Assembly: GCF_001953305.1 (NCBI RefSeq)
Contig: NZ_MTFE01000010.1
Span: 4,365,289-4,407,321, forward strand
Length of the DNA: 42,033 nucleotides
Reading direction: 5' to 3'
Source: Cnuella takakiae
GTDB lineage: Bacteria > Bacteroidota > Bacteroidia > Chitinophagales > Chitinophagaceae
Part shown: one piece after another, positions 1 to 40,236 of the stretch
How the letters are laid out: every line of letters begins with the position of its first letter
Position numbering within the stretch: position 1 is the first letter of the stretch
The notes under the pieces: model-generated
Databases searched by the model: none
Told to the model about the DNA's origin: nothing
The model's input: only the letters and a program-made list of their open reading frames with translations
Made by a program: the position numbers and the translations under genes

Positions 1-20
1 TTTCAGGGGGGACAGGGGCA
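1..20. repeat. Partial family-A palindromic repeat arm
   Basis: The first 20 bases match the outer half of the family-A repeat (AGGGGGACAGGGGG), with one extra G and a changed end. It touches the citrate synthase stop codon directly (stop at 21-23). The rest of the element lies off the left edge. Full arms are at 6163-6196, 6447-6481, 12094-12126, 12205-12238, 14431-14463 and 14563-14597. Confidence 0.75.
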
Positions 21-1346
21 TTACTCTCCCCAAATCTCGCCTTCGCCTTTGATCCATTCTTTCACCAGGTCGGTGGTTACGGACTTGGGACGCTCGATGG
101 CAAAACCAAGGGCACGGTCCCAGATGAGGGAAGCCAGTACACCCAGGGCACGGCTTACGCCAAACAGAACGGTGTAAAACTCGTATTCCACCATGCCGTA
201 GTGTACCAAAAGGGCACCGCTGTGGGCATCCACGTTGGGCCAGGGGTTTTTAATTTTACCCAGGCTCTGCAAAATGGGCGGAACAGCATCGTAAATATTC
301 CAAACGGTTTGCACCAGCGGGTCGTCGGGCATATGCTTTTTGCCAAACTCCATTTGTGCGGTAAAGCGGGGATCGGTTTTGCGCAGCACCGCATGGCCAT
401 AACCGGGAACAACTTTTCCGCTGCTCAGGGTCTTTTGCACATATTCCGCAATCTGCTCTTTGCTGGGTGTTTCGGTACCCAGTTCTTCACGCATCTCGAA
501 AATCCATTTGATCACTTCCTGGTTGGCCAGGCCGTGCAGGGGACCGGCAAGGCCGTTCATACCGGCGGCAAAGCTCAGGTAAGGATCGCTAAGGGCCGAA
601 CCTACCAGGTGGGTGGTATGTGCCGACACATTGCCGCCTTCGTGGTCGGCGTGGATGGTGAGGTACAGGCGCATCAGCTCTTTGAAGCCGTCATCGCTGT
701 AACCCAGCATGTGGGCAAAGTTACCGGCCCAGTCGAGCAGGCCATTGGGCTGGATATGATCGCCGCCCTTGTATTTGCGGCGGTAGATATAAGCGGCAAT
801 GCGGGGCAAACGAGCGATAAGGTCCATCGAGTCGTCGAACACCGCATCCCAATATTCCTTTTTATTCATGCCGTCGGCATAGCGGCGGGCAAAAGAGCTT
901 TCCGTTTGCAGGGCCATTACTCCCACCACAAACTGGGTCATGGGATGGGTATTAACCGGCAGTGCTTCGATGGTATCGAAAACGTGGTTGGGCACATGGC
1001 TGCGGCGTTGCCACAGCGCAGTGATGTGGTGGGCATCCGCATCGGTGGGCAGGTCGCCTACCAGCATCAGGTAAAAAAGCCCTTCGGGCAAGGGCTCGGA
1101 GCCGCCTTCGATTTTGGGTAAAAGGTTCTGGAGCTCGGGAATGGAATACCCGCGGAAACGGATACCATCCTGTGCATCCAGCAGGGAGGTTTCGGACACC
1201 AGGCCGGTGATGCCGCGCATACCCTGGTAGATCTGGGAAAGCTGTACTTCCCCTATTTTCTTACTGCCGTGTTCTTTTAAAATATCCTTGATCTCTGCTG
1301 CCTGGTCATCGGCTTTTGCTTTGAACCGTTCTTTTAACACACCCAT
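21..1346 (-). CDS. gltA: Citrate synthase, mitochondrial (eukaryotic) type
   Basis: Condenses oxaloacetate and acetyl-CoA to citrate, the entry step of the TCA cycle, in the cytoplasm. The 441 residues include the family's catalytic residues by motif: His271 in GPLHGLANQE, His318 in GYGHAVLR and Asp373 in NVDAHSG, with the HADHEGGNVSAHT block near 232-244. Sequence style and length resemble the mitochondrial (type I, short) enzyme rather than the NADH-regulated E. coli form, a type known from Bacteroidota. The start ATG at 1346 opens with a charged helix, as expected. The stop abuts a repeat arm at 1-20. A weak -7-like box (TATCTTTA) lies upstream on the minus strand, with one mismatch. The 110-nt gap to the next gene holds nothing else clear. 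Confidence 0.96.
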   Translation of the reverse strand: MGVLKERFKAKADDQAAEIKDILKEHGSKKIGEVQLSQIYQGMRGITGLVSETSLLDAQDGIRFRGYSIPELQNLLPKIEGGSEPLPEGLFYLMLVGDLPTDADAHHITALWQRRSHVPNHVFDTIEALPVNTHPMTQFVVGVMALQTESSFARRYADGMNKKEYWDAVFDDSMDLIARLPRIAAYIYRRKYKGGDHIQPNGLLDWAGNFAHMLGYSDDGFKELMRLYLTIHADHEGGNVSAHTTHLVGSALSDPYLSFAAGMNGLAGPLHGLANQEVIKWIFEMREELGTETPSKEQIAEYVQKTLSSGKVVPGYGHAVLRKTDPRFTAQMEFGKKHMPDDPLVQTVWNIYDAVPPILQSLGKIKNPWPNVDAHSGALLVHYGMVEYEFYTVLFGVSRALGVLASLIWDRALGFAIERPKSVTTDLVKEWIKGEGEIWGE

Positions 1347-1456
1347 TTGATGATTTTATTATCCTGGAAGAAGGGTTTACCTAACCCCCTAAAGATATGT
1401 ATTGACAGTGAATTGCATTTGCAAAAATAAAGGCTCACAAACCCCTTCCTTCTTTT

Positions 1457-2542
1457 TCACTTGGGTGCTTTACGGTAAATGTAAAGCGCAACAAATGAGA
1501 AGAATATATTGGGCAGCCAGGCAGCCAATAATGGTGGCAGGTTGCCTTTGACTGAAAACACCGTGGAGAAACGATCCGATACAATGAATACGGCTGCAAT
1601 GATGATTCCAATGGCCAGGTGCAATCCACTTCCGCCCCTGTTCTTCCGGCCCGCTACAATGGCACCAATAAGGGTAAGCAGTACCACGCTAAAGGGCGTG
1701 GCCGATCGCCTGAACTTTTCCACCTTCAACGCATTCAAACCTTCAGTACCCCGCAGTTCCTCCACTTTGATATAACGGGAAAGATCAGGTGTAGTCATCC
1801 GGTCCTTGGCGTAATCATCTTTCCGGAGTTCTTCGGGATGCAGGTTGAGGGGCATGCGCATGGAGTCTTTAAATACTACCTGTTCGCCCATGGTACCCAA
1901 CTTACGTTCTACCACGCTGGTGAGCAGCCATTGGTTGCGGGTAGTATCCCACTGCATGCGGCCGGCCCTTACATTGTACACCAGCTTACCACCCTGTATG
2001 CGGTCGAGGAAAAAATTGCCTGCCGTTTTGGTCGTGGTATCGTAGTACTTAACGCCGATATAAGTATTGGTATCAATACGGAGGTAATGGGCTGGCTGCA
2101 GGCCCTGGTTGCTGTTGCCTTTTCCCAGGTGTTTTACTTCAAAAGTGCTCCGCAGTTCGTTGGCTTTTGGAATATAGTACTGGTTGGCTACCCATAATCC
2201 TGCCCCGAAAAAAATGCCACCCAACAAATAAGGGCGCAGCCAACGGTTGAAACTGACACCCGCCGCAAGGATGGCAATGATCTCGGAGCGGAGCGCCATC
2301 TTGGAAGTAAAGAAGATAACCGAGATAAAAACAAACAGCGGGTATAGCAGGCCCCAGATAAAAGGCACAAATCCAAAATAGTACTGCCGGATGATCTCGC
2401 CGGTAGACAAACCGGTATTCACAAAATCATCGGTTTTCTCGCTGCTGTCTACCGCAACGGCAATTACCGTAAACAACAACATCGAGAAAACGAAGGTGGT
2501 GATGAACTTGCGTAATATGTACCAGTCGATCTTTTTGATCAT
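1457..2542 (-). CDS. LptF/LptG (YjgP/YjgQ) family permease
   Basis: An inner-membrane subunit of the lipopolysaccharide export ABC transporter. The family works as an LptF-LptG heterodimer with LptB and passes LPS to LptC/LptA. The 361 residues show the family layout: hydrophobic segments near residues 12-32, 56-78 and 95-118, a long periplasmic beta-rich stretch (about 125-275), then three more hydrophobic segments to the end. The N-terminus begins with a basic WYILRKF helix typical of the family. Which of LptF or LptG it is cannot be decided from sequence alone. It lies downstream of tgt on the same strand, across a word-repeat hairpin (2581-2774). TTACTTCG, a near match to the -7 box, lies just before the ATG, so it may have its own promoter. 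Confidence 0.92.
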   Translation of the reverse strand: MIKKIDWYILRKFITTFVFSMLLFTVIAVAVDSSEKTDDFVNTGLSTGEIIRQYYFGFVPFIWGLLYPLFVFISVIFFTSKMALRSEIIAILAAGVSFNRWLRPYLLGGIFFGAGLWVANQYYIPKANELRSTFEVKHLGKGNSNQGLQPAHYLRIDTNTYIGVKYYDTTTKTAGNFFLDRIQGGKLVYNVRAGRMQWDTTRNQWLLTSVVERKLGTMGEQVVFKDSMRMPLNLHPEELRKDDYAKDRMTTPDLSRYIKVEELRGTEGLNALKVEKFRRSATPFSVVLLTLIGAIVAGRKNRGGSGLHLAIGIIIAAVFIVSDRFSTVFSVKGNLPPLLAAWLPNIFFSFVALYIYRKAPK

Positions 2543-2580
2543 TGCAGTGCGAAGTAAGGAGTTTTAAGGGTAACAGAAGG

Positions 2581-2774
2581 TTAAGGGTTTGGAGTTTGGG
2601 GTTTGGGGTTTGGAGTTAAGAGTTTGGGGGTTGGGGTTAAGCCTTTGAAGAAACAGTTTACCTGAAGTAGCCACATGCATCTCGCTTCAGTATTTGAAAT
2701 ACCAGAATTCGTTAGAACAGTTCATTCCAAAGAACACCAAACCCCAAACTCCTAACTCCAAACCCCTAACTCAT
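2581..2774. repeat. Inverted word-repeat pair (GTTTGGAGTTTGGGG family)
   Basis: The left arm (2581-2640) is a degenerate array of words such as GTTTGGGGTTTGGAGTT. The right arm (2735-2774) is the complementary array (CCAAACCCCAAACTCC and CTAACTCC words), so the two can fold into a long imperfect stem around about 95 nt. The TGA stop codon of tgt (2771-2773) lies inside the right arm. The same family recurs at 16316-16446. Confidence 0.85.
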
Positions 2775-3910
2775 AATCTTGTTTTCAACACCGGCACCAG
2801 CTCGTTTTTCCAGCTCATAAAATCACCGGCAAGGATATGCTTGCGGGCTTCGCGTACCAGCCACAGGTAGAAAGCAAGGTTTTGAACCGAAGCAATGGTA
2901 TAACCCAACAACTCGCCGGCCTTGAACAGGTGCCGCACATAAGCCTTGGAGTAGTATTGGCTCCATTCGTTTTCAAGCCCCGGGTCGATGGGTGAAAAGT
3001 CGCGCTCCCACTTTTTATTATCGATATTGATCACGCCCTTTGTTGTAAACAACATGGCATTGCGGCCATTGCGGGTAGGCATTACGCAGTCGAACATGTC
3101 CACACCCAGCGCAATATTTTCCAAAATATTCCAGGGTGTACCCACTCCCATCAGGTAGCGGGGTTTGTCCTTGGGCAGGTGCTCGCAGCAAAGGGCCGCA
3201 ATTTCATACATCACTTCCTCGGGTTCGCCCACGCTCAATCCGCCAATGGCATTGCCGGTAGCGCCTTTGGACGCTATGTATTCGCAGGAAGCCTTGCGCA
3301 GGTCGTGGAAAACCGCCCCCTGCACAATGGGAAACAGGTTCTGCGTATGACCGTATCTATCAGGTGTGTTATTGAAATGATTCCAACAGCGGTCCAGCCA
3401 GCGGTGGGTCAGGTGCATGGAGTTCTCCGCATACTTAAAGGTGCTGTTGGCAGGCGGGCACTCATCGAAAGCCATCATGATGTCGGCACCGATGCTGCGC
3501 TCGATGTCCATCACCTTTTCAGGAGTAAACAGGTGCTTGTTGCCATCGATATGGCTGCGGAAGGTCACGCCTTCCTCATTGATCTTGCGGGTGCCGGCCA
3601 GCGAAAAAACCTGGTAGCCGCCACTGTCGGTGAGGATGGGGCGGTCCCAGTTCATCAAGCGGTGCAGCCCACCTGCCGCCTCCATGGTTTCCATGCCAGG
3701 CCGCAGGTACAGGTGATAGGTATTGCCCAAAATGATCTGTGCCTGCACATCCGTCTTCAGCTGCTGCTGGGTCACCCCCTTCACGCTGCCCACGGTGCCC
3801 ACCGGCATAAAGATGGGTGTCTGGATGGTACCATGATCGGTGGTGATGGTGCCTGCGCGGGCTGCAGAGGCGCTATCGGTATGTTCGAGGTTGAATTGTA
3901 AGGCTGCCAT
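2771..3910 (-). CDS. tgt: tRNA-guanine transglycosylase lacking the zinc ligands
   Basis: Exchanges guanine-34 of GUN-anticodon tRNAs for preQ1, in queuosine synthesis. The start is set at 3910 (MAALQFNLEH) because the longer frame to 4003 only reads through an inverted repeat. This gives 379 residues, the usual length. The substrate block DSGGYQVFSL and the nucleophile region DMFDCVMPTRNGRN are intact, so the active site looks complete. The structural zinc site of bacterial TGT (C-x-C-x2-C and a His 26 residues later) is gone: the equivalent positions are Leu312, Asn314, Ser317 and Gln343, with spacing preserved. From memory other Bacteroidota enzymes may share this; not verified. The promoter box TACTTTTG at 3919-3926 is 8 nt from the ATG. 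Confidence 0.96.
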   Translation of the reverse strand: MAALQFNLEHTDSASAARAGTITTDHGTIQTPIFMPVGTVGSVKGVTQQQLKTDVQAQIILGNTYHLYLRPGMETMEAAGGLHRLMNWDRPILTDSGGYQVFSLAGTRKINEEGVTFRSHIDGNKHLFTPEKVMDIERSIGADIMMAFDECPPANSTFKYAENSMHLTHRWLDRCWNHFNNTPDRYGHTQNLFPIVQGAVFHDLRKASCEYIASKGATGNAIGGLSVGEPEEVMYEIAALCCEHLPKDKPRYLMGVGTPWNILENIALGVDMFDCVMPTRNGRNAMLFTTKGVINIDNKKWERDFSPIDPGLENEWSQYYSKAYVRHLFKAGELLGYTIASVQNLAFYLWLVREARKHILAGDFMSWKNELVPVLKTRL

Positions 3911-3918
3911 AAAGGGCG

Positions 3919-3926
3919 CAAAAGTA
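3919..3926 (-). promoter_or_regulatory. -7 box of the tgt promoter (TACTTTTG)
   Basis: Perfect match to the Bacteroidota -7 consensus TAnnTTTG on the minus strand, 8 nt before the tgt ATG (3910). No clear -33 TTG at the usual spacing. Such a short distance predicts a leaderless or near-leaderless mRNA. Confidence 0.7.
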
Positions 3927-4206
3927 ATCGCAGATTGTGGGATTGGGGAAGGATTTCGCTGATTGCAACATATAGATGATTGGATTGGGCGGGGATTTAA
4001 CAAATAGATGCATTACGTTCAATACCTACTCATAAATTGGAAATAAAAAGATACCGCATATAGGAGCGGTTTAGCTCACTCTTTATCATGGCACAAAAGC
4101 CTACCGTTTTTATCTATTCATTTCAATTCATCATTAAAATCATAGGGGCTTATCAACTTATTGTTCCCAATCAGCGAAATCCTTCCTTAATCCCATCATC
4201 TGCGAT

Positions 4207-4214
4207 TACTTTTG
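4207..4214 (+). promoter_or_regulatory. -7 box of the glycosyltransferase promoter (TACTTTTG)
   Basis: Perfect TAnnTTTG match 7 nt before the ATG at 4222. It is the mirror copy of the tgt box, because it sits at the end of the right arm of the inverted repeat 3917-4216. No -33 element is obvious. Confidence 0.7.
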
Positions 4215-4221
4215 CCCACCT

Positions 4222-5337: not shown

Positions 5338-5490
5338 AGCCCACCCCAACGGCCCTCCCCAACCCCTCCCGTTGGAAGGGGCTTTGATTGCCGACAACAC
5401 TTAGCTTCTTGTTGTCATTTGCTCATAATTAGAGCACCAATTGCTGTGGGGTACTTAAGCCCCTCCCTTCGGGAGGGGTTGGGGTGGGCT
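5338..5490. repeat. Family-B REP-like inverted pair
   Basis: Arms 5338-5384 and 5457-5490 share AGCCCACCCCAAC at their outer ends and CCCCTCCC...GGGAGGGG inner palindromes. The right arm forms a perfect 8-bp hairpin (CCCCTCCC TTC GGGAGGGG). The left arm starts on the base after the glycosyltransferase stop codon. The right arm ends 24 nt before the rsmG ATG, and its GGTTGG supplies a TTG at 5479-5481, 17 nt before the -7-like box TATCTTCG (5499-5506). The 72 nt between the arms show nothing else. Confidence 0.88.
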
Positions 5491-5514
5491 GCCTTTCCTA
5501 TCTTCGCAGCCGTT

Positions 5515-6162: not shown

Positions 6163-6240
6163 ACACCCCCTGTCCCCTAAAGGGGGAACTTAGGTCGAAG
6201 CAATTTATAGTAGTTGATAGGGTCCTGTTAATTGAGTTTT

Positions 6241-6316
6241 GATGGGAACACGGATTGAACGGATAAAACAGATTTTCGTTCTTATCTGTTTCATCCGTTC
6301 AATCCGTGTTCCTATC
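6241..6316. repeat. Long hairpin repeat (GGAACACGGATTGAACGGAT)
   Basis: Left arm 6245-6272 and right arm 6285-6312 pair over 28 nt with a single A/C mismatch around a roughly 10-12 nt loop. Pairing extends about 4 nt further outward with one mismatch. The word resembles dispersed Bacteroidota repeats of the type 'ATCCGTTCAATCCGTGTTCC' (from memory). No coding potential. Confidence 0.9.
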
Positions 6317-6392
6317 CCCTTGCCGAAGAGCGATGAGCAAGTACAAGTGTGCGACGCAACCAGGTTTCATAGTAGTACAATAGCCTGGTTCA

Positions 6393-6436
6393 TTAAACAA
6401 CAAAGCCACTCCGGATAGAGTGGCTTTGTTGTTTAA
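6393..6436. terminator. Bidirectional terminator, 19-bp perfect stem
   Basis: TTAAACAACAAAGCCACTC (6393-6411) pairs perfectly with 6418-6436 around the loop CGGATA. A and T runs at both ends suit termination of both rsmG (plus) and the M1 peptidase (minus), which converge here. Confidence 0.88.
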
Positions 6437-6485
6437 AACAATGTATGACCTAAGTTCCCCCTTTAGGGGGACAGGGGGTGTGGTA

Positions 6486-8426: not shown

Positions 8427-8513
8427 GTGAACGGCTGAGTTTTAAGGAGGGCTAAATTTCGGTGAAACCCTGTTAGGAGAAAAACAAAAGTTTAAAGCAA
8501 CCGGGTTAAAAAG

Positions 8514-8538: not shown

Positions 8539-8565
8539 GAAATAAGGTAGAATCAAAAAGTGGTG

Positions 8566-9401: not shown

Positions 9402-9410
9402 AGCTGTAAT

Positions 9411-11301: not shown

Positions 11302-12159
11302 CTAAACCTTATTTACACTTTGATGTATGGCTTTTTCTTCTTTACTGAAAAAAGAAATCACCAGGTACAGCACAAAGATCACCGGAACAGCAAGCCATTT
11401 CAGGATGACAAGGGCTACCAGTGATACTGCCAGCAGGATGTATTTCAGCAGATTGTTCTGGAAAGAAAAATCGCTGAACTTAAGTGCCATGAACCGGCGG
11501 TTGCAGGTCATGAGGTAGGCCAGCACCAGAATCACCGCATAAAGGAACCATTGGTTGATGAACAGCTGCTGGATGCCGAATTTGTCGAACCATATAATAA
11601 GCGGAAAGGAAGCCACGAACAAGCCGGCTGCAGGCGAAGGCACGCCGATAAAGCTGGTGCTTTGGTTGGTGGCAATATTGAACTTGGCCAACCGCCAGGC
11701 CACCGCTCCTGAAAACAGGAATGCAGGCACAAAAAGCAGCATGGAAGTATCCAACCCATTTTCACCCTGCGCATAGGATAACCGCAGCAACTGGTAGAGG
11801 ATCATTCCGGGTGCCACACCAAAGCTCACCACATCACTCAGCGAATCGAGTTGCTTGCCCATCTCCGAACTGGCCTTGAGCATACGCGCCAGGAAGCCGT
11901 CCAGGAAATCAACAACAGCAGCAGCAAAGAGAAAGATGGCACCCCAGGTCATTCTTTCGGGCATTACCACTTGTGTAGCACCGGTATTTTCCAGCACCAC
12001 AATGGTTTCACCGGTTTGCAGGATGAACACAATAGCAATACAGCCAAACACCAGGTTGAGCAGGGTGAAGAGATTGGGGATCTGCCCAACAATACCCCCT
12101 GTCCCCCTGAAGGGGGAACTTAGGCCGGAATTACTGCTATTTTTATCACTTGTATCCAA
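11302..12159 (-). CDS. pssA: CDP-diacylglycerol-serine O-phosphatidyltransferase, repeat-encoded N-terminus
   Basis: Makes phosphatidylserine from CDP-diacylglycerol and serine, the route to phosphatidylethanolamine. The CDP-alcohol phosphotransferase signature D-x2-D-G-x2-A-R-x8-G-x3-D-x3-D is complete (DFLDGFLARMLKASSEMGKQ, then LDSLSD). Six to eight membrane segments follow. The conserved start of the family is at QIPNLFTLLNL, yet no ATG, GTG or TTG stands directly before it. The only canonical start is TTG at 12159, and the codons between (SGLSSPFRGTGGIV) are a family-A repeat arm read in frame; a stop lies further upstream in the partner arm. The protein therefore seems to carry a repeat-derived N-terminal extension of about 25 residues. 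An AUU start is a less likely alternative. Confidence 0.92.
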   Translation of the reverse strand: MDTSDKNSSNSGLSSPFRGTGGIVGQIPNLFTLLNLVFGCIAIVFILQTGETIVVLENTGATQVVMPERMTWGAIFLFAAAVVDFLDGFLARMLKASSEMGKQLDSLSDVVSFGVAPGMILYQLLRLSYAQGENGLDTSMLLFVPAFLFSGAVAWRLAKFNIATNQSTSFIGVPSPAAGLFVASFPLIIWFDKFGIQQLFINQWFLYAVILVLAYLMTCNRRFMALKFSDFSFQNNLLKYILLAVSLVALVILKWLAVPVIFVLYLVISFFSKEEKAIHQSVNKV

Positions 12160-12238
12160 GACAATATTTTTTAGATGAACGCTTACATTTAAACCGGGTT
12201 GTTTGACCTAAGTTCCCCCTTTAGGGGGACAGGGGGTG
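12094..12238. repeat. Family-A inverted pair at pepP/pssA
   Basis: Arms 12094-12126 and 12205-12238 are inverted copies of the CCTAAGTTCCCCCTT/AGGGGGACAGGGGG repeat. The right arm ends 5 nt before the aminopeptidase P stop. The left arm lies inside the pssA reading frame. The 78 nt between contain the pssA start region and no hairpin terminator. This junction is co-directional, unlike the other two complete family-A pairs. Confidence 0.93.
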
Positions 12239-14430: not shown

Positions 14431-14597
14431 ACCCCCTGTCCCCCTGAAGGGGGAACTTAGGTCAGACATAACTATATACAACAGCGCCCCTCCAAAGCAG
14501 AGGGGCGCTGTTGTATATTAAAACTTCGCGTTAATGCATGTTGCAGATGGAGCAGGCACTCTGGCCTAAGTTCCCCCTTCAGGGGGACAGGGGGTGT
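14431..14597. repeat. Family-A inverted pair bracketing a terminator
   Basis: Arms 14431-14463 and 14563-14597 are near-identical inverted copies of the family-A repeat. The left arm starts 1 nt after the DUF922 stop and the right arm ends 8 nt before the kinase stop. A 19-bp terminator lies between them, the same layout as 6163-6481. Confidence 0.93.
14474..14518. terminator. Bidirectional terminator, 19-bp perfect stem
   Basis: ATATACAACAGCGCCCCTC (14474-14492) pairs perfectly with 14500-14518 around a 7-nt loop. It serves two converging genes. Confidence 0.9.
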
Positions 14598-16316: not shown

Positions 16317-16446
16317 GTTGGGAGTTGGGAGTTTGGGGTTTGGAGTTTGAGGTTTTTCCAAGAGCCACCACAACTACGGGTAAACAAACAGCCTATACCG
16401 GTCTCCAACCACTCAACACCAAACCCCCAACTCCAAACCTCAAACC
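16316..16446. repeat. Inverted word-repeat pair between trpS and gatC
   Basis: The left arm (about 16316-16356) is built of GTTGGGAG and GTTTGGGGTTTGGAGTTTGA words. The right arm (about 16411-16446) carries the complementary words (CCAAACCCCCAACTCC, AAACCTCAAAC). Pairing is imperfect, roughly three quarters in my alignment. The same family is at 2581-2774. Here it occupies a divergent promoter region. Confidence 0.8.
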
Positions 16447-18479: not shown

Positions 18480-18565
18480 TGTGCTAATTAGTTAATGTGA
18501 TAATGTGCTAAAAAATGAAGCTTGTATTTCATTAGCACATTAGCCAATTATCCCATTAGCTAATT
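18480..18565. repeat. Inverted word-repeat pair (TTAGCTAATTAGCACA family)
   Basis: The left arm (18480-18520, GTGCTAATTAGTTAATGTGA words) pairs imperfectly with the right arm (18531-18565) around a short loop, between converging genes. It begins right after the adenosyltransferase stop. The right arm contains the lolD-like stop codon (18556-18558) and encodes its last residues Val-Ile-Ser. The same family is at 32340-32438. Confidence 0.88.
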
Positions 18566-19215
18566 ACTTTCCCGTCCTTCATCACCACCGTCCTATCACT
18601 CAGTTGCGCCAGTTCTTCGTTGTGGGTAACAATGAGGAAGGTTTGATTGAACTGCTTGCGCAGGTCGAAAAAGAGTTGGTGCAGGTCGCGGGCATTGGCC
18701 GAGTCGAGGTTGCCGGTGGGCTCGTCGGCAAATACCACACTGGGTTTGTTGATGAGGGCACGGGCAACGGCTACTCTTTGCTGTTCGCCGCCCGATAGGG
18801 CGCCGGGTTTATTTTCCAGCCGGTGCGAAAGCCCCAGCATCTGGAGCAGCTCTTCGGCTCTTTGCCTTACTTCTGCTTTACGCCCGCCGGCAATCCAGCC
18901 CGGGATACAAACATTTTCCACGGCGCTGAACTCGGGCAGCAGGTGGTGAAACTGGAACACAAAACCAATGTGCCGGTTGCGGAAATTGGCCAGCTTCCGG
19001 CCATCAAGGCGGGTAATGGTTTCGCCGGCAAGGGTAACGGCACCGGCATCGGCACGGTCGAGGGTACCCAGGATGTGGAGCAGGGTACTTTTGCCGGCCC
19101 CTGAAGAACCGACGATGCTCACAATTTCGCCTTGCTCCACGCTGATGTCAACGCCCTTGAGCACTTCTACAGCGCCATATCTTTTGTGTATGTCCTTTGC
19201 GGTAAGTATTGCCAT
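18556..19215 (-). CDS. lolD: LolD-like lipoprotein-releasing ABC ATPase
   Basis: 219 residues: Walker A GSSGAGKST near 36-44, FQFHHLLPEFSAVENV near 90-105 (a LolD-style Q-loop), LSGGEQQRVAVARAL near 140-154, Walker [13 protein letters not shown] near 164-175 and LIVTHNEEL near 196-204. The FHHLLPEF segment and length favour LolD, the ATPase of the LolCDE complex that frees lipoproteins from the inner membrane. The permease is not adjacent. The last residues (VIS) and stop are encoded by the repeat arm. A related MacB-like ATPase lies only 1 kb away on the other strand. Confidence 0.88.
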   Translation of the reverse strand: MAILTAKDIHKRYGAVEVLKGVDISVEQGEIVSIVGSSGAGKSTLLHILGTLDRADAGAVTLAGETITRLDGRKLANFRNRHIGFVFQFHHLLPEFSAVENVCIPGWIAGGRKAEVRQRAEELLQMLGLSHRLENKPGALSGGEQQRVAVARALINKPSVVFADEPTGNLDSANARDLHQLFFDLRKQFNQTFLIVTHNEELAQLSDRTVVMKDGKVIS

Positions 19216-19749: not shown

Positions 19750-19754
19750 CATTT

Positions 19755-19952
19755 CACGCAAAGGCGCCAAGGAGCAAAGACGCAAAAGAAATTGCACGCA
19801 ACGATACAACGGAGCCACGGCGCAACTATATTTTATTTATGGATTGCCTCACCATGTATCACTTGCAGGTTGTAGCTAAAAGCTTGCAGCTTGTCTTTGC
19901 GTCTTTGCTCCTTAGCGCCTTTGCGTGACAATCGTTGCGTCGTTGCGTGCAA
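19755..19952. repeat. Two-module inverted word repeat (CACGCAAAGGCGC family)
   Basis: Left side: module 1 at 19755-19787 (CACGCAAAGGCGCCAAGGAG, CAAAGACGCAAA) and module 2 at 19793-19811 (TGCACGCAACGA, CAACG). Right side: module 1 inverted at 19894-19927 and module 2 inverted at 19931-19952. The module order is not mirrored, so the two sides are not a simple single stem. Between them lies an inverted copy of the GCTGCAAGCTTTTAGCTACA repeat (19862-19892). This fills the 307-nt gap between DUF2795 and fabI; no gene is there. Confidence 0.88.
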
Positions 19953-23486: not shown

Positions 23487-23766
23487 AAGCAGCCTGAACC
23501 GCAGATTTCTATGATTTTAAAAGATTTGTAAGATGACTGCAGCCAATACCTGCCTACATTATCTACAGGCTTGCAAATAAAAAGGACGATGCCTTAAAAC
23601 CTGCAGTTTGCCTGTAGCGGAAACCCTACAAACGAATACTTAATGATACGAAATTACGGTTGTTCAGTAAAGGGTATTAAAGACTTGCCATTTCGATAGG
23701 GCTAAAACAGCCCGCAAACAGGAATGCAGTAGGATTTAAGTTCATACAAATCATTCCCTGATCATA
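23487..23766. other. Intergenic gap without a recognised element
   Basis: 280 nt between recN and the AAA-ATPase gene. AACCGCAGATTTCTATGATT near 23499-23518 echoes the 'GCAGATT' words seen at 3930 and 11193. No perfect TAnnTTTG box, terminator or gene was found here. Confidence 0.5.
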
Positions 23767-26434: not shown

Positions 26435-26525
26435 CGTGAATGGGCAATGGTAAATGGTCAATTGTCAATGGGAACCAAGGTATTGGGAATGTATTACATT
26501 CACCATTCCCGATTCACCATTCACG
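26435..26525. repeat. Inverted word-repeat pair (AATGGTGAATGG family)
   Basis: The left arm (26435-26470, CGTGAATGGGCAATGGTAAA words) pairs imperfectly with the right arm (26497-26525, CATTCACCATTCCCGATTCA). The stop codon of the NIF3 gene (TGA, 26521-26523) is inside the right arm. Confidence 0.82.
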
Positions 26526-30220: not shown

Positions 30221-30359
30221 GATGGTGAGTGATGAGTAATGAATGATGAATAGTTAAAGCAAATGTTTGAAGATAAAAGAAGAGGTCGGCAGATAACTGC
30301 CGGCCTCTTCTTTTATCTAGGTTTTCATCACTCATCACTCACTACTCCTCACTCCTCAC
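30217..30359. repeat. Inverted word-repeat pair (GAGTGATGAG family) bracketing a terminator
   Basis: The left arm (30217-30253, GTGAGATGGTGAGTGATGAG words) pairs imperfectly with the right arm (30326-30359, CATCACTCATCACTCACT). Each arm contains the stop codon of its neighbour: TGA at 30218-30220 for the sorting-domain gene and at 30356-30358 for the methyltransferase gene. A 22-bp terminator lies in between. Confidence 0.9.
30271..30318. terminator. Bidirectional terminator, 22-bp stem
   Basis: AGATAAAAGAAGAGG plus TCGGCAG (30271-30292) pairs with 30297-30318 around ATAA, with one G-T pair. A and T runs lie at both feet, between two converging genes. Confidence 0.9.
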
Positions 30360-31713: not shown

Positions 31714-31726
31714 GGACAATTTGTCC
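31714..31726. promoter_or_regulatory. Perfect palindrome upstream of grpE
   Basis: GGACAA-T-TTGTCC is a perfect 6-bp-arm inverted repeat, 13 nt upstream of the likely -33 element of grpE. It is not CIRCE (TTAGCACTC-N9-GAGTGCTAA). It could be an operator for the grpE-dnaJ unit or for the divergent methyltransferase gene. Confidence 0.4.
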
Positions 31727-31738
31727 CAACCCATACCA

Positions 31739-31766
31739 TTGGCAAACCATTTGACCGCTACCTTTG
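31739..31766 (+). promoter_or_regulatory. Promoter of grpE (TTG-N17-TACCTTTG)
   Basis: The -7 box TACCTTTG at 31759-31766 matches TAnnTTTG perfectly, with a TTG 17 nt upstream (31739-31741). It gives a leader of about 15-20 nt. The rest of the 259-nt divergent gap holds the GGACAATTTGTCC palindrome and a weak AGAAGCC/GGCTTCT dyad. Confidence 0.65.
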
Positions 31767-31787
31767 CACTCAATTTTTTGTTTTGAT

Positions 31788-32339
31788 ATGAAGCACCAGG
31801 AATTCCAGGAACAAGAGACCAACGGAACAGAAAACAATACTGCCGCAGAGACCACGGAAGATACCCAGGCACCTGCCGCCGAGCAAAGCATTGACGAAAC
31901 GGCGCAGCTGAAAGCTCAGGTAGATGAACTGAAGGACAAATACCTGCGCCAGGCTGCGGAGTTCGACAACTTCCGGCGCCGTACCGCCAAGGAACGCATC
32001 GAGCTGATTCAAACCGCCAGCAAGGACGTAGTAACCGACCTGCTGGAAGTACTCGACGACTGCGAGCGTGCCGAGCGGACCATGGACAAAGCCGAAGACC
32101 TGGGCCCCATCAGGGAAGGCATCCAGCTGGTGTTCAACAAGCTGCGCCAAACACTTACCAATAAAGGTGTAAAACCCATGGACGCTAAAGGCCAGGAGTT
32201 CAACGCCGACCTGCACGAAGCCATCACCGAAATTGAAGCCGGTGCGGAACTGAAAGGCAAGGTGGTAGATGAAGTGATCAAAGGTTATTACCTGCACGAT
32301 AAAATCATCCGTTACGCGAAAGTGGTGGTAGGTAAATAA
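31788..32339 (+). CDS. grpE: Nucleotide exchange factor GrpE
   Basis: Releases ADP from DnaK. The start at 31788 (MKHQEFQEQETNGTENNTAA) gives 183 residues. The acidic disordered N-terminus (to about 45), the long coiled coil (KAQVDELKDKYLRQAAEFDN, then FRRRTAKE) and the C-terminal beta domain (GQEFNADLHEAITEI) are typical. It precedes dnaJ, so they form a co-chaperone unit without dnaK. The stop is followed at once by a TTAGCTAATTAGC-family repeat that separates it from dnaJ. Confidence 0.95.
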   Translation: MKHQEFQEQETNGTENNTAAETTEDTQAPAAEQSIDETAQLKAQVDELKDKYLRQAAEFDNFRRRTAKERIELIQTASKDVVTDLLEVLDDCERAERTMDKAEDLGPIREGIQLVFNKLRQTLTNKGVKPMDAKGQEFNADLHEAITEIEAGAELKGKVVDEVIKGYYLHDKIIRYAKVVVGK

Positions 32340-32438
32340 TTTGATAATGTGCCAATTAGCCAATGTGCTAAAAAGCAACTACAATCAACGATTCCCGATC
32401 ATTAGCTAATTAGCACATTAGCTAATTGGCTAATTAAC
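32340..32438. repeat. Inverted word-repeat pair inside the grpE-dnaJ unit
   Basis: The left arm (32341-32377, ATAATGTGCCAATTAGCCAA) and right arm (32400-32438, ATTAGCTAATTAGCACATTA) belong to the same family as 18480-18565. It starts right after the grpE stop and ends about 6 nt before the dnaJ ATG, so a long mRNA hairpin would sit between two cotranscribed genes. Confidence 0.88.
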
Positions 32439-32443
32439 TTTTT

Positions 32444-33616
32444 ATGTCTAAAAGAGATTACTACGAAGTATTAGGTGTTGGCAAAACAGCCGCCGCGGAC
32501 GAGATCAAGAAAGCGTACCGCAAGGTGGCCATGCAATACCACCCCGACCGCAACCCCGGGGATAAAACTGCCGAAGAAAAATTCAAGGAGGCTGCTGAAG
32601 CCTACGAGGTGCTCAGCGATGCCGACAAGAAAGCGCAATACGACCGCTTTGGCCATGCCGGCGTTAGCGGCAACGGCCGTGGTAATGGCGGTTATGGCGG
32701 CGGCATGAACATGGACGACATCTTCAGCCAGTTTGGCGACATCTTTGGCGAAGACGTGTTCGGCTCCTTCTTCAACGGCGGCGCAAGAGGCGGCGGTGGC
32801 CGTGGCAGCCAGCGTGCCCGTGGCACCCGTGGTTCCAACCTCCGCATCAAGCTTAAACTTACTTACGAAGAAATTGCCAAGGGTGTAACCAAAAACATCA
32901 AGGTAAAAAAATATGTAGGCTGTACTACCTGTAACGGCAGCGGCGCAAAGGACAGCGGCAGCGTACAAACCTGCGGCACCTGCGGTGGCAGTGGCCAGGT
33001 ACGTAAGGTTACTAGCACCTTCCTGGGACAGATGCAAACCGTAACCACCTGCCCTAACTGTAACGGCGAAGGCAGCACCATCACCGCCAAATGCGGCAGC
33101 TGTAAAGGCGAAGGCCGCGTGTACGGCGAAGAAACCGTTACCATCGACATCCCGGCGGGTGTGCAGGAAGGTATGCAGCTCAATATCAGCGGCCGCGGCA
33201 ATGCCGGCGAACGTGGCGGTGCTCCCGGCGACCTCATCATCCTGGTAGAGGAAGAACCACACAAGGAACTCCAGCGGGAGGGCCTCAACGTAGTATTCGA
33301 CCTGCACCTCTCCTTCCCCGAAGCAGCCTTTGGCGCCAACGTGGAAGTGCCTACCATCGATGGCCGGGCCAAGATCAAAATTCCCGCAGGCACACAAAGT
33401 GGTAAGATCTTCCGCCTCAAAGGCAAGGGCTTCCCTGCGGTAAACAGCTACGAGAAAGGCGACCAGCTGGTACACGTAAATATCTGGACGCCCCAGGAGC
33501 TGACGAGCGAAGAAAAGTCGATGCTGGAAAAGCTGGCGAAATCGCCCAATTTCCAGCCCAATCCCGACAAGAATCAAAAATCGTTTTTCGATAAGGTTCG
33601 GGAAATGTTCCAATAA
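32444..33616 (+). CDS. dnaJ: Chaperone DnaJ
   Basis: DnaK co-chaperone, 390 residues. J domain about 5-70 with the HPD motif, a Gly-rich linker about 75-135 ([17 protein letters not shown] is longer and more basic than usual) and four complete CxxCxGxG zinc repeats: [32 protein letters not shown]. The C-terminal substrate domain follows. It lies directly behind grpE and ends in an 11-bp terminator shared with the converging histidine kinase gene. Confidence 0.97.
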
Positions 33617-33620
33617 ATTG

Positions 33621-33646
33621 AAAAAGAGGCCTGAGGGCCTCTTTTT
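33621..33646. terminator. Terminator of dnaJ
   Basis: AAAAAGAGGCC (33621-33631) pairs perfectly with GGCCTCTTTTT (33636-33646) around TGAG. Symmetric A and T runs make it usable from both strands. Confidence 0.92.
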
Positions 33647-33725
33647 AGTTTCGGATATTAGGTTGGCTATTGTTGCCAGTTTACCATGGGCATTCAACCA
33701 ATTCAGCAACCAACTCGCAGCAAGA

Positions 33726-36700: not shown

Positions 36701-37577
36701 CGGCCAGTGACCGGAAGCGTCGTTCGCTGGCTTCCAGTTGTTGCCTGATCTCTTCCTGTTCTGTAATATCAATATTAATCCCGCTGATATAGACCAGGTT
36801 ACCGGAAGGATCAAAAGAAGTGCGCGACCGGGCTTGTAACCACCGCAGGGCACCATCCGCCCGCCTGATCCGGAACTTGTAGGCATAATCGGTGGTTGCT
36901 GCCTGGATTCCTTCCTGGCTTTCGTACATCTGCTGCAGGTCTTCGGGCAATACAAAGCGGTGGAAATCGGCTACCCTGTTGATACCGGTGTGATCGGTGA
37001 GGCCAAAAAGCTGCAACTGTTCCTGGCTCCAACTCAGGGTATCGGTAAGAGCATCCCAGTACCACAATCCTACCCTTCCGGTGTTGATGCCCAACTCCAT
37101 TTGCTCCTTGGCTTTTTGCAACAGTTCCTCCCTTTGCTCGTTGCGCTTTTTTGCCTTTACCGTTTCCGTTACATCATAACCTGACACCAGCAAACCGATG
37201 GTTTGGCCCTGTTCATCCTGCAGGGGCTGAAACCGCGTATTGAAATAACCATGGTACAGCACGCCGTTTACCAGGTAGGATGCCGGGTTCTCTTCTATTT
37301 GTTCGGCTATACCGGTGCGCATCACCCGCTGATGAATTTCATCAATACCGCTGCCTTTCAGTTCGGGGTAAATGGAAAAAAGCGATTTACCCAAAACATC
37401 GGAAGCGTTTTTGCTAATGAGCTGGCAATAGGCGGGATTTACAAAATCAACAACCTGGGAAGGTCCCAGGAATACTGCCACAGCTACAGGCAAAAGGTTG
37501 AAGTAGCCATACACTTTTGCCAGCTCTGCCTGTGTTGCCGGAGTGCTTTCACCCACAAAAATCGGATGGTCTGTCAT
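33726..37577 (-). CDS. Soluble histidine kinase with about eight PAS domains
   Basis: 1283 residues with no membrane segment or signal peptide. About eight PAS/PAC modules run from about residue 20 to 1038, most ending in the PAC tail D-I-T-E: about 20-145, 160-275, 287-400, 410-528, 542-660, 672-787, 795-912 and 924-1038. Then come a short coiled coil, HisKA with phosphoacceptor His1070 (VASHDLKEP), and HATPase_c with N box YNLINNSLKF near 1179-1188, G1 DNGIGFD near 1219 and G2 GNGLGLALC near 1247. All catalytic boxes are intact. No response regulator is nearby (orphan). Ligands are unknown. The WYNDRW and HPDD/HPGD motifs are common in PAS sensors of redox or small molecules. Confidence 0.93.
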   Translation of the reverse strand: MTDHPIFVGESTPATQAELAKVYGYFNLLPVAVAVFLGPSQVVDFVNPAYCQLISKNASDVLGKSLFSIYPELKGSGIDEIHQRVMRTGIAEQIEENPASYLVNGVLYHGYFNTRFQPLQDEQGQTIGLLVSGYDVTETVKAKKRNEQREELLQKAKEQMELGINTGRVGLWYWDALTDTLSWSQEQLQLFGLTDHTGINRVADFHRFVLPEDLQQMYESQEGIQAATTDYAYKFRIRRADGALRWLQARSRTSFDPSGNLVYISGINIDITEQEEIRQQLEASERRFRSLAENSPDVITRHGRDFHYLYVSPQIESYTGHKPEEFLGRSYQEVGFPDSLCRVFDEALAYVFSTGRKHQVSYSMPGDNRHVFSRFTPELDENGAVDSVLIISTDITEIKKTELEQRKLATQLQLATDSANVGTWWYNVQTGELEWSALHKKMWGYPEDRSGFVFADWHNCIHQADQGEVLALMEQSKAQGLQFNATYRIEPAGGSRRWIRSVGQYQFNEKGEALAVTGISIDITEQKLVEEQLKAKEEHLSLALEGGELGTYDFYLQSGQVVWSEKTRSFFGVDFEAPVTLELFYKAIHPDDRDRIVATTTGAMQFGSGGNFDEEFRVVHLQDGQIRWIRSRGRVFFDETGQPRRFIGVVQKVSRYKEIMAQLQEGRERLQAALNASNTGTFRWNIQTNELSWDENLDRLFGLRQGEKVQNLDEFMSCVHPGDRDRVAAACRRCALEAADFDESFRVVWPDGSIHWLADKGKTLTSADGKPLFLTGACVDITERKQSEQALAANEERFRTLGNSSAQLAWMADANGFIYWYNDRWYAYTGSDLAIMQGWGWQQVHHPDHVSRVVSFVQAAWTKDEPWELTFPLRRHDGVYRWFLTRAYPIKDAEGKVVQWIGTNTDINEQLETQQALRQSESELRVLADFQPQIVWTANKAGLLDYINKRWEEFTGSPSEAAFGAGWHHWVHADDLEVALASWNLSVATGQYYEVESRIRRHDGVYRWYLNRGQALHDEKGNIIKWLGTITDIHDRKTMAVQLEALVKERTRALQRSNEDLQQFAHVASHDLKEPVRKMKTFSSMLEMELGQNLSARAKTYFEKMNSATDRMFSMISGVLAYSTFNAVEETFQPVNLNVILEQIGADLELPMQEKGAILEVGQMPNVSGVPLLLYQLFYNLINNSLKFTRTGVIPIITITAETGTLHKSPAAIIKVADNGIGFDQQYAGQIFNTFTRLHSKDDFEGNGLGLALCKKIAERHGGTITAVGVEGRGATFTVVLPR

Positions 37578-37880
37578 GTTTGCGTATGCCTTAGTATAAG
37601 GGTTAGTAGGCTGTATGCTGCTAAATTAAAGGCATCGGCCCTCCATACGTACAGCGGTCAGCTACATTGCAGGCTAAACATCAAACTTTTTTTTACTACT
37701 TTAATTTTGTTTGATTTTCACCAATATTAAAAGGGTTCAAATCGAAACAATATTTTAGAGGACTACAAACTCGCCACAAAAAACGTAGTTGAAAAATCTG
37801 TTGCAGCCCTGGTCACCCAACGTTTGGATGCAAATAGGAGCAGCCTTTTTTTTGTTGGTTTCTTGTATCAAAACTGTTGG
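37578..37880. other. Gap upstream of the kinase and pseudogene
   Basis: 303 nt, AT-rich in the middle. A perfect TAnnTTTG match (TAATTTTG, plus strand, 37702-37709) has no -33 partner and lies 170 nt from the nearest reading frame. GCAGCCTTTTTTTT near 37841-37854 may be the remains of a terminator. No gene was found. Confidence 0.5.
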
Positions 37881-38325
37881 ATGAAATACCGATGCTTGTA
37901 CAGCTTGGTTGTGGTTGCACTGACAGGTTATAATTGCAAAACACCCGCCACTACCACCGCACCTACTGCCAGCAAGAACCCCAACACGCCTACCGAAAAG
38001 TATTGGAAGCTAGTTGAACTCAACGACTAACTGATAACCATAGCCGAAGACGGCAAGCGCGAACCGCATTTTATTTTGCATAAGGCCAACCAACAGGTGG
38101 CCAGCAGCGGCGGCTGCAATGTTTCCAGCGACAGCAATGAACTGCAACCCAACAACGGGATAATTTTTTCCCAAATAGCCATTAACTGCATGACCTATTG
38201 CGGCCTAGAGGTGGAGACCAGGATAATGGATGTTCTCCATACTGCAGGGAGATAATACCTATGGAGATAGCCTGCACCGTGCCCCGTTGGCACCTTTGGC
38301 CAGATTGGTAGCGGTAAAATTTAAG
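37881..38325 (+). pseudogene. Broken META-domain (HslJ-like) lipoprotein gene
   Basis: Translation gives a signal-like start (MKYRCLYSLVVVALTGYNC) and then the META family pattern in broken form. Frame 1 reads TEKYWKLVELND, a TAA stop at 38028-38030, then LITIAEDGKREPHFILHKAN, QQVASSGGCN and ELQPNNGIIFSQIA. A frameshift near 38240-38253 moves to the next frame, which continues DNTYGDSLHRAPLAPLARLV and ends AVKFK. Intact relatives read continuously through YW.L.ELNG...GGCN...MEVE...ADNY...APLARFVAV. One stop and one frameshift mark it as dead. A lipobox with Cys at the end is present but spaced badly. It converges with the von Willebrand gene. Confidence 0.85.
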
Positions 38326-38360
38326 AATGTACATCAGGCCATTAGCAGAGCCTTTGGCGA

Positions 38361-40100
38361 TTATTTCCGCTTTTTCCTTTTACCATATATATGCCTTGCC
38401 TGCTGCACGAGCGTGATGAACTCCAGTTGGGAAGGATTGCCGTTGCCAAGGGCAGGTCTTGCCAGTCGCAGTACATCTTCAAAATCAAGGTTGCGGGTAT
38501 AACGGCTATTGCGCAGCAGCATGCCAAACAGCGCAACCGAACCTGCCAGTTGGTACTCCTTTTCCAGGGCAGTCCACGGGATGAAATTAATAGGCTTAGC
38601 AAAATCCCGCTGCAGCATTTTGCCGTCCCCCGGCAAGTGGTACTGTATATGAAAACGGGCGGGAATGGTTTGGTGCAGATCGGCTACCTGGGGCTCCAGT
38701 TCAAACAGCAGCAGGGAGGCATAGGCCGAGCCAATCTCGCCACCTTCGATGGTAGCCAGCGGGTCGTGGATGGCGCCTACTTTATTATCAAAACCAATCA
38801 GTCGGTAGTGCTTTACAAAAGCCGGGTCGAAGTGAACGGTAAAGGAGGCATTATCCGCAACGGTATAAAGGGTTTGCATGAACTCGTGTAGCAGCACCTT
38901 TTCGGCTTCGGCATAGCTGTCGATGTAGGCAAAATTGCCGTGCCCTTTTTGCGCCAGGGCCTGTATCCTTGAATCCTTGTAATTGCCCATACCCACGCCC
39001 AGGCAGGTAAGGTATACCCCCGCACGGGTTTGGGTAGCAATCAGGTTTTCCAGTTCTGCTTCGGAGCGGAGGCCTACGTTGAAATCGCCATCGGTGGCAA
39101 GGATCACCCGGTTGTTGCCGTTTTTGATAAAATGATTTTGGGCCACACTGTAGGCCAGTTTTACCCCCGACTCACCCGGCGTAGATCCGCCCGGCTCCAG
39201 GCTGTCAATTGCCCGGAAAATTTTTTCTTTTTCATTGCCCCCGGCAGTGGGTAGCCACACCCCTATCGTTCCGCCATACACCACGATGCTTACAGAGTCT
39301 TTGTCGCGGAGGTTTTGCACCAGGCTACGAAACCCTGACTTCAGCAGGGGCAGGCGGTTGGGCATATCCATACTTCCGGAAACATCTATTAGAAAAGTAA
39401 GATGGCTTGGCGGCAGGCTGTCGGGAGCGATTTTGCGGGAGGCCAACTGAACCAGCATCAGCTGGTTCTGGCTGTTCCAGGGGCAGTTGGTGAGTAGAGA
39501 TTTGACGGAAAAGGTTTCTCCAGGCGGCGGCTCTTCGTACCGGAAATTAAAGTAATTGATCATTTCCTCAATGCGCACCGCATCGGGCGGAACGGGAGTA
39601 TTCATTTTCAGGAAACGTCGCACATTGCTGTAAGAGGCGCGGTCCACGTTGAGGCGTATACCGGTGGATGGAAAAGCACCCGAAGGCACAAAGCCATTTT
39701 CCACCAACGAAACATAGGTCTCATTACCGGTAAGCCAGGGCTGCTGAAAATCGCGGGAAAGATTCTGGGTAAAAGAGGCCAACCGGCTCATGGAGCCCGC
39801 CGTGGCGGGTTTGCGCTTCAGCTCCACTTTAAGGTATTCGTTGGCCCGGGCAGGGAGCCGGCGACTCAGAAAGCCATCCATGCTGAAGGTAAGCGTATCT
39901 ACATGCCTGTTGGAAAGAATACCAAAGCCACCGGCTGCACCGGCACGAATAACATAACCCGTACTGTGCTGCAAAATGGCCACGTTGGCCAGGGGCTTTC
40001 CGTGCTCGTCGGTCACCTCGCCACGGATATATACCTGCTGGCCAAAACCCCAAAAGGGCAGCAGCAAACAACAGAGCCATAACGGTAGGCGGTTATTCAA
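38361..40100 (-). CDS. Secreted von Willebrand factor A protein, YfbK type
   Basis: 579 residues from a TTG at 40100 (MNNRLPLWLCCLLLPFWGFG), which gives a clean signal peptide. A longer frame from TTG 40190 would start inside the repeat 40161-40232 and bury the signal. After the signal comes a carboxypeptidase-regulatory-like beta domain (VYIRGEVTDEHGKPLANVAI, about 21-100), then the YfbK N-terminal region (NVDRASYSNVRRFL, PPDAVRIEEMINYF), a vWA domain with a complete MIDAS (DVSGSMD, a later Ser/Thr loop and ATDGDFNVG), and a DUF3520-like C-terminus. The fusion of the regulatory-like domain to YfbK is typical of Bacteroidota. Function is unknown. Confidence 0.86.
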   Translation of the reverse strand: MNNRLPLWLCCLLLPFWGFGQQVYIRGEVTDEHGKPLANVAILQHSTGYVIRAGAAGGFGILSNRHVDTLTFSMDGFLSRRLPARANEYLKVELKRKPATAGSMSRLASFTQNLSRDFQQPWLTGNETYVSLVENGFVPSGAFPSTGIRLNVDRASYSNVRRFLKMNTPVPPDAVRIEEMINYFNFRYEEPPPGETFSVKSLLTNCPWNSQNQLMLVQLASRKIAPDSLPPSHLTFLIDVSGSMDMPNRLPLLKSGFRSLVQNLRDKDSVSIVVYGGTIGVWLPTAGGNEKEKIFRAIDSLEPGGSTPGESGVKLAYSVAQNHFIKNGNNRVILATDGDFNVGLRSEAELENLIATQTRAGVYLTCLGVGMGNYKDSRIQALAQKGHGNFAYIDSYAEAEKVLLHEFMQTLYTVADNASFTVHFDPAFVKHYRLIGFDNKVGAIHDPLATIEGGEIGSAYASLLLFELEPQVADLHQTIPARFHIQYHLPGDGKMLQRDFAKPINFIPWTALEKEYQLAGSVALFGMLLRNSRYTRNLDFEDVLRLARPALGNGNPSQLEFITLVQQARHIYGKRKKRK

Positions 40101-40160
40101 AGCAGACAGATTAACTGCCAAAGTACAAAATAGCGGGGAAGTGAGTGGGAAGGCGTCTTT

Positions 40161-40232
40161 GGTGTTTAGTTTATGGTTTTTAGTTAACAACTGCTTGTCT
40201 AACTAAAAACCATAAACCAAAAACTATAAACC
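40161..40232. repeat. Hairpin word repeat (AACTAAAAACCATAAACC family)
   Basis: GTTTATGGTTTTTAGTTA (40169-40186) pairs perfectly with 40200-40217 over 18 bp around a 13-nt loop. Related words continue on both sides. The right end lies about 4 nt from the hpt stop codon. Confidence 0.9.
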
Positions 40233-40236
40233 TACA

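Follow-up and report, generated by a model that had tools for sequence, protein, structure and literature searches.

Background

Miniature inverted-repeat transposable elements (MITEs) are nonautonomous elements with terminal inverted arms, which occur as short copies without a gene and in a gene-bearing form with like arms. Homing endonuclease genes of a Vsr-like group, together with fractured genes, were reportedly described by Dassa in 2009. The nearness of repeats to stop codons is itself already described, for repetitive extragenic palindromes (REPs) and for heptamer arrays. Most REPs between convergent genes lie less than 20 bp from both 3' ends, and REP termini often give the stop codon (PMC3733652); the 15-nt rule for REPs of E. 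coli is restated in PMC12306157. Arrays of G-rich heptamers lie very near stop codons or overlap them in Xanthomonas and Nostoc (PMC4692102), and TAACTGA heptamers are mostly placed before start codons in a Beggiatoaceae genome (PMC4679880). In Caulobacter, a role in mismatch repair was proposed for VsrA, a solitary Vsr-like DUF559 protein (PMC12907096). Here we analyze a window of 42,033 nt (bases 4365289-4407321 of the main contig of the 5.7 Mb genome of Cnuella takakiae), together with the repeated element F1 that it contains and the DUF559 nuclease genes found between F1 arms. A sequence-only reading of the window had held that repeats of many families abut stop codons and knew of no described system with such a placement; REPs (PMC3733652) and G-rich heptamer arrays (PMC4692102) had in fact been reported near stops.

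The inverted repeats of the sampled genome sort into three classes. Class A consists of C-rich palindromic arms, chiefly of one family, F1; class B consists of tandem arrays of 7-, 8- or 9-nt units in inverted pairs; all others form a third class. The stop-abutting placement holds for classes A and B and not for the remaining repeats. We give about even credence to a joint reading, according to which class A elements are nuclease-linked mobile elements that sit at gene junctions as shared 3' ends, alongside class B arrays placed at stops. That DUF559 proteins are the moving enzymes of a widespread, undescribed class of bacterial mobile elements with C-rich REP-like inverted arms, which insert at gene junctions and, in frame, into conserved proteins, and whose nuclease-less derivatives turn into shared terminators and stop codons of the adjoining genes, is a proposal that we make tentatively, with somewhat less than even confidence.

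Structure and placement of F1

An alignment of 11 copies shows that F1 is repeated as an entire unit, about 167 nt long. Its inverted arms measure 36 nt; between them lie a central hairpin, in which paired changes occur, and a conserved stretch before the right arm. The arm core was found 55 times in forward and 49 times in reverse orientation, against 0 for the control. Gene-free copies with terminal inverted repeats exist, as seen in the aligned copies and in 37 pairs of arms. These pairs are distributed as follows: 23 in convergent gaps, 13 in codirectional gaps, one in a gap with an unresolved side, and none in divergent gaps. The convergent fraction in other gaps is 70/462 (P = 5e-10).

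Arm counts, in which the two arms of one unit are not independent, show the same preference for 3' ends. Of the 75 arms in the window's genome, 61 are stop-facing; the stop lies within the arm in 10 of these and 0-23 nt before its start in 50, and one arm is far from its stop. The arms located within 25 nt behind a stop or containing one thus number 60 of 75, compared to a baseline of 11.4% of positions in repeat-free gaps within 25 nt of a stop. Read in other frames, the arm itself supplies the stop, after a protein tail ..PLSP (8 cases in this genome, 7 in others) or ..GGT/GET (2 and 1 cases). The same arm is present in named genomes of Chitinophagaceae and other Bacteroidota, where 45 F1 loci were examined: 42 of 46 stop-facing arms lie at -30 to +8 nt (median 1), and, of 14 start-facing arms, 8 are no more than 8 nt from the start codon.

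A terminator-like hairpin is present between the arms of 19/20 convergent units and 6/18 others (P = 8e-5), for a cut-off (stem of at least 10 pairs) set after the units had been viewed and with 38 of 62 F1 junctions scorable. In the window's genome alone, the hairpin is found in 18/18 convergent and 5/12 other units. Units located between nuoL/nuoM-like and cysD/cysN-like genes (names given by eye) do not have it. From their sequence, the F1 hairpins are predicted to terminate transcription. The earlier idea that the arms act as a portable 3' end fits F1, given the hairpins of convergent units and the arms that contain the stop (10 cases in this genome, 8 in others). A nested GGAACACGGAT hairpin, read from the alignment, recurs at a similar position within 8 of the 37 units, and also occurs alone elsewhere. 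Rfam gave no match at gathering score in the window, and the matches of the F1 unit are all below the gathering scores of the families concerned.

A DUF559 nuclease between the arms

At locus L107 an intact DUF559 gene is located between F1 arms, behind a ychF-like gene. Four DUF559 matches were identified in the window's genome, three with inverted arms and a fourth, weak one without; one of the three has F1 arms, 0 nt from the stop of a radC-like gene. Six distinct loci (L107, L236, L238, L200, L294 and L297, the coordinates of L294 being those of L097) have a DUF559 gene flanked by F1 arms left and right, and two of these six genes have an internal stop. When all arm families are considered, arms occur at 28 of 50 DUF559 loci (26 of 46 distinct), and in the genus set at 20 of 29, four overlapping with earlier loci. 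Flanking arms accompany 25 of 39 distinct standalone DUF559 genes and 1 of 93 control genes of like size, the controls coming from three genomes only. Standalone and armed loci are here the best-scoring matches plus small-frame ones picked by hand from the match lists, rather than every match. The flanking arms are mostly C-rich with a short C-G palindrome (L271, L300 and L305 are exceptions). In 10 distinct armed standalone genes, and not in the others, the left arm lies at most 15 nt from the end of a long frame.

The DUF559 domain corresponds to PF04480 in Pfam. Residues Q47, D56, E67 and H73 are present in all 92 uninterrupted sequences (92/92). The nearest solved structure is PDB 3hrl, which is endonuclease-like (E = 1e-11); the mobile intron protein 3r3p matches only at E = 0.15. 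No DUF559 relatives in viral contigs were confirmed with the query used. A limited literature search retrieved no publication linking DUF559 to such repeats and, as far as such searches show, the flanking of DUF559 by F1 arms, its presence in host frames, the distribution of the hairpin by site type and the near absence of a gap at some of these junctions in relatives are new.

DUF559 is also found in frame with conserved proteins. For leucyl-tRNA synthetase this was established with Pfam at three loci from different genomes (frames L218:526-3318, L221:472-3312 and L209:91-3318), and by eye at L207, L217 and L222. A common insertion point after a GKSxGAEI motif seems likely, by eye, in L207, L217, L218, L221 and L222. 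The other hosts are methionyl-tRNA synthetase (L214), methionine synthase (L208, and L216 by eye), chorismate synthase (L206), HsdR (L203) and an M23 peptidase (L219). The HsdR frame (L203:106-3318) carries both a GIY-YIG and a DUF559 domain. In the window's genome, one open frame joins DUF559 to the final portion of the MetH activation domain (L199:1393-2412, at C1:794292), and an armed DUF559 element apparently splits this genome's own metH. Arms are present at the in-frame loci L199, L206-L209, L218, L219 and L221, and are absent by threshold around L203, L214, L216, L217 and L222. Neither an intein nor an intron domain was found among the Pfam matches of 9 host frames.

Orthologous junctions in relatives

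One junction that holds a short F1 unit in the window's genome holds a decayed DUF559 gene between F1 arms in Flavisolibacter BIN11 (L071, L097). The ychF-like junction is occupied by DUF559 in L107 and L236. Junctions free of the element can be short: 17 nt separate the aligned ends in L087 (where the gap is 14 nt) and in L014. Among five relatives, the junction between the deoxynucleoside kinase (dNK) and DUF922 genes measures 5, 8, 14, 37 and 60 nt. That between the adenosyltransferase and ABC genes measures 6, 11, 14, 82, 106 and 141 nt in six relatives, the last with an array of the same kind. Next to one stop, where the window's genome carries F1, genome G003 has a class B array (L067; L089:13452-13617).

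Placement of inverted repeats in the sampled genome

Genes and inverted repeats were identified with a purpose-written gene caller and inverted-repeat finder, run on the window, on sample 1 (20 evenly spaced 20-kb stretches) and on sample 2 (20 further stretches). Since 11 of the 20 stretches of sample 2 were chosen for their F1 content, its F1 gaps were dropped from the placement tests; they were kept in the counts of classes A, B and other. Random expectation was obtained by sliding each repeat within its own gap. Pooled placement counts concern repeats outside the window with a loop of at least 8, sample 2 F1 gaps omitted.

The window and sample 1 together have 242 gaps, of which 75 hold inverted repeats scoring at least 26, compared to 1 of 242 dinucleotide-shuffled gaps; in sample 2 the counts are 98 of 266 gaps and 0 of 266 shuffled ones. 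Stop-facing outer ends lie within 8 nt in 38/114 cases outside the window, where 25.2 are expected (P = 0.0002), and start-facing ends in 5/88 cases, where 15.4 are expected. Of 60 codirectional repeats, 49 are closer to the stop and 11 to the start. The abutment noticed in the window is thus real in the rest of the sampled genome. The window alone shows no excess over random (7/18 against 9.0 expected), as its gaps are filled by the repeats. Nor does the placement amount to a general rule, since the third class (54 gaps) does not abut stops (14/65 against 13.9 expected).

Class A occupies 19 gaps, 13 convergent, 6 codirectional and none divergent, with a median stop distance of 3 nt. Its stop-facing ends lie within 8 nt in 17/32 cases (21.3 expected), a comparison which is uninformative because the unit fills its own gap. 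Class B, in 54 gaps, has 26/57 stop-facing ends within 8 nt (16.0 expected, P = 0.0002) and 1/51 start-facing ends (10.3 expected). When arrays were sought without requiring an inverted partner, 43 were found in 508 gaps compared to 4 in shuffled gaps, with 12/44 stop-facing ends within 8 nt (4.9 expected, P = 0.0007). Periods 7 and 14 dominate; as 8 and 9 are common too, only part of the class B arrays are heptamers. The claim of many unrelated families stands insofar as two unlike classes share the placement; the number of families had been overestimated, 6 of the 10 stops listed with a distance (citrate synthase, rsmG, M1 peptidase, aminopeptidase P, DUF922 and dNK) being next to F1.

Read inwards, the arms have a G fraction of 0.278 and a C fraction of 0.168, as measured over all 110 non-F1 pairs with a loop of at least 8 and not over class B alone. 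The inward-read arms, poor in C, contain 423 stop triplets compared to 242 on the opposite strand, a number mildly above that of shuffled arms (379.8, standard deviation 13.6). With the letters of the arms reversed, the counts are 485 and 252. The inward bias is therefore mostly a matter of base composition, and the idea that the arms are built to carry stop codons is not supported.

Repeats of the window

The repeats of the window are the following:
1-20: degraded class A copy of F1, of which the right end falls in the window and adjoins the stop of citrate synthase (21-1346, minus strand); its left part is in the DNA left of the window (L310)
2580-2770: class B inverted pair of GTTTGGA-type 7-mers, ending at the tgt stop
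5338-5489: inverted pair of class A arms from a non-F1 family (CCCTCCCCAACCCCTCCC..GGAAGGGG), following the stop of the glycosyltransferase gene (5337)
6163-6481: long-form F1 unit separating rsmG (stop 6162) from M1 peptidase (stop 6486), with a nested GGAACACGGAT hairpin at 6241-6316 and a terminator-like hairpin at 6393-6436
12094-12237: F1 unit lacking a hairpin, with the aminopeptidase P stop (12244, minus strand) on one side and a CDP-alcohol transferase gene (start near 12051) on the other
14431-14595: F1 unit with 36-nt arms and a terminator-like hairpin at 14474-14518, between DUF922 (stop 14429) and dNK (stop 14606)
16317-16445: class B inverted pair, GTTTGGA-type, in a divergent gap with no adjoining stop
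18480-18566: class B inverted pair, TAATGTG/TAATTAGC-type, between the adenosyltransferase and ABC (lolD-like) genes, overlapping the stop of the ABC gene
19754-19928: CGCAAAGG-type inverted pair of class B, which abuts neither stop of its convergent gap, the distances being 54 and 78 nt
26435-26525: class B inverted pair, GTGAATG-type, right arm overlapping the NIF3 stop
30221-30355: GAGTGATG-like text (array text read by eye) flanking a 22-nt terminator-like hairpin (30271-30318), between a sorting-domain gene and an RlmI-like gene
32336-32445: class B inverted pair, TAATGTG/TAATTAGC-type, between grpE-like and dnaJ-like genes
40155-40231: inverted pair of GTTTTTA/GTTTATG-type text (7-mer unit read by eye), beside the stop of an hpt-like gene (40237, minus strand)

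Distances re-measured in the window agree to within a few nt with those of the sequence-only reading: rsmG 0, M1 peptidase 4, aminopeptidase P 6, DUF922 1, dNK 10 and tgt 0, with the stop inside the arm at NIF3 (-9) and lolD (-11). Behind grpE and the adenosyltransferase, the repeat text does begin at the stop, and pairing begins 5 nt away. The distance of 4 nt given for hpt becomes 5 nt by first pairing and 12 nt by the repeat finder. Beside the stops of the sorting-domain and RlmI-like genes the GAGTGATG-like text was recovered by eye; the finder scored the intervening hairpin instead. The abutment at citrate synthase holds, its repeat being the end of a degraded F1 copy that starts left of the window. 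The F1 arm beside citrate synthase is broken by ten consecutive A immediately before the first position of the window (L310). The arms of the glycosyltransferase repeat are C-rich and similar to F1 arms. Inverted repeats of the third class are present at 3911-4221 and 23487-23766: a 48-nt pair in a divergent gap and a ACCGCAGATTT-type pair.

Origin of the placement

Class A, that is F1 and its relatives, would be a mobile element with REP-like inverted arms. In its complete form it would carry the gene of a DUF559 nuclease (Vsr/PD-(D/E)XK type), and the short units of the window would be gene-less derivatives of the element. The nuclease would act by cutting and would help the elements to move. 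Copies would persist where both neighbours stay readable, either at gene junctions or as an open frame inside proteins. Between convergent genes, the short unit would keep a bidirectional terminator-like hairpin and sometimes a stop codon, and thereby serve as a shared 3' end. Class B arrays, like the heptamer arrays of Xanthomonas and Nostoc, are located at stops and not at starts, probably because promoter regions exclude them, a structured 3' end being tolerated or useful.

Survival alone could produce a similar picture: if copies landed evenly and were lost from genes and promoters, those behind stops would remain, with neither targeting nor use. The depletion of outer ends near starts (5/88), the preference of codirectional repeats for the stop side (49/60) and the absence of sampled F1 from divergent gaps all speak for this. 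Even landing, on the other hand, should leave most copies in long gaps, yet 22/23 convergent F1 sites of the window's genome leave at most 24 nt besides the unit, and just 4/77 sampled convergent pairs overlap or are less than 20 nt apart; moreover, the third class of repeats of the same genome does not abut stops. We regard survival alone as rather unlikely. The arms, however they arose, could also have been selected as terminators or as hairpins that protect RNA, at 3' ends where transcripts have to end. The hairpin of convergent units and the excess of F1 in convergent gaps argue for such a use, as does the report that Xanthomonas transcripts start or stop more often at heptamer repeats able to form G-quadruplexes (G4) than at control repeats (PMC4692102). 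Units without hairpin inside the apparent nuo and cys operons, and units set against start codons, argue against this account, which we hold to be improbable.

That the element targets the DNA of stop codons, for example TAA, has very little probability in our opinion. TAA is indeed the stop before 43/50 F1 arms of the window's genome, compared to 59% of 604 genes (P = 0.0001), but this preference may follow expression level, TAG and TGA occur too, and start-facing arms are edged by CAT or other text. We judge it scarcely more credible that F1 is an ordinary REPIN (a REP doublet forming hairpins) driven by a REP-associated tyrosine transposase (RAYT). Its REP-like hairpin arms in inverted pairs and the two Y1_Tnp genes of the genome would suit such an origin; both Y1_Tnp loci, however, carry other inverted arms and no F1 arm, the GTAG/CGTC tag is found at the ends of 0/37 F1 units, and the gene found between F1 arms is DUF559, not Y1_Tnp. 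RAYT was accordingly rejected as the engine of F1, on the absence of F1 arms at the two loci and of tags on the 37 units. The two Y1_Tnp (RAYT-like) genes (L052:1351-2206 and L053:1294-2119) have inverted arms of their own; by eye, the L053 arms look like a dispersed repeat found in L010, which is not placed against stops.

Several observations weigh against the nuclease-linked reading of class A and its joint extension to class B. No clear target site duplication was seen in F1 flanks read by eye, and no movement of F1 or DUF559 was seen, filled and empty junctions coming from different species; element junctions common to several species may reflect plain vertical descent. By threshold, 14/39 distinct standalone DUF559 genes have no arms, and four further loci of the genus have an F1 arm on one side of DUF559 only. 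Comparison with orthologous gaps, which the sequence-only reading had suggested, gave some nearly gapless junctions in relatives, but also empty ones of 75, 114 and 123 nt. The distance test against random placement, likewise suggested, gave an excess outside the window, but not in the window or inside the gaps of two sister genomes (4/11 against 2.9 expected in G015, 7/15 against 7.0 in G003), and 2/4 start-facing arrays of G003 lie within 8 nt of the start. The choice of control genes, the time at which the hairpin cut-off was set and the proportion of scorable junctions, given above, count on the same side.

Comparison with known systems

If the link with DUF559 is true, a domain of unknown function gains a role, and C-rich intergenic repeats gain a likely engine separate from RAYT. 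It would also show how a selfish element can turn into a regular 3' end of host genes, and explain why some proteins end in, or contain, repeat-encoded stretches. The placement itself extends the reports on REPs and heptamer arrays to Bacteroidota.

F1 resembles REPs, bacterial interspersed mosaic elements (BIMEs) and REPINs in being a short dispersed palindrome in inverted pairs, near 3' ends and sometimes supplying the stop. It has the REP type of location, with 60/75 arms behind stops or containing them and 0/37 pairs in divergent gaps. Unlike REPs and REPINs, it has neither the GTAG/CGTC tag nor an adjoining RAYT gene; it has DUF559 instead, and a hairpin between the arms. With MITEs it shares terminal inverted arms, short gene-less copies and a gene-bearing form with like arms; it differs from them in that no target duplication was found in the flanks read and that its gene is a DUF559 nuclease and not a known transposase.

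The DUF559 form resembles Vsr-like homing endonuclease genes, being a small Vsr-like nuclease inside conserved proteins. It differs from these by the lack of an intein or intron domain (Pfam, 9 host frames), by its inverted REP-like arms, and by the many copies with like arms at unrelated sites. The F1-linked DUF559 and VsrA belong to the same domain family; the terms "palindrom" and "inverted repeat" are absent from PMC12907096.

Class B resembles the arrays of Xanthomonas and Nostoc in its tandem 7-mers near or overlapping the stop, gene-strand G-richness having been measured only over all non-F1 pairs; it differs in having several unit families of 7, 8 and 9 nt, in inverted pairs. With the TAACTGA repeats, also present in some Bacteroidetes (PMC4679880), class B shares tandem heptamers in gaps; unlike class B, those repeats mostly precede start codons.

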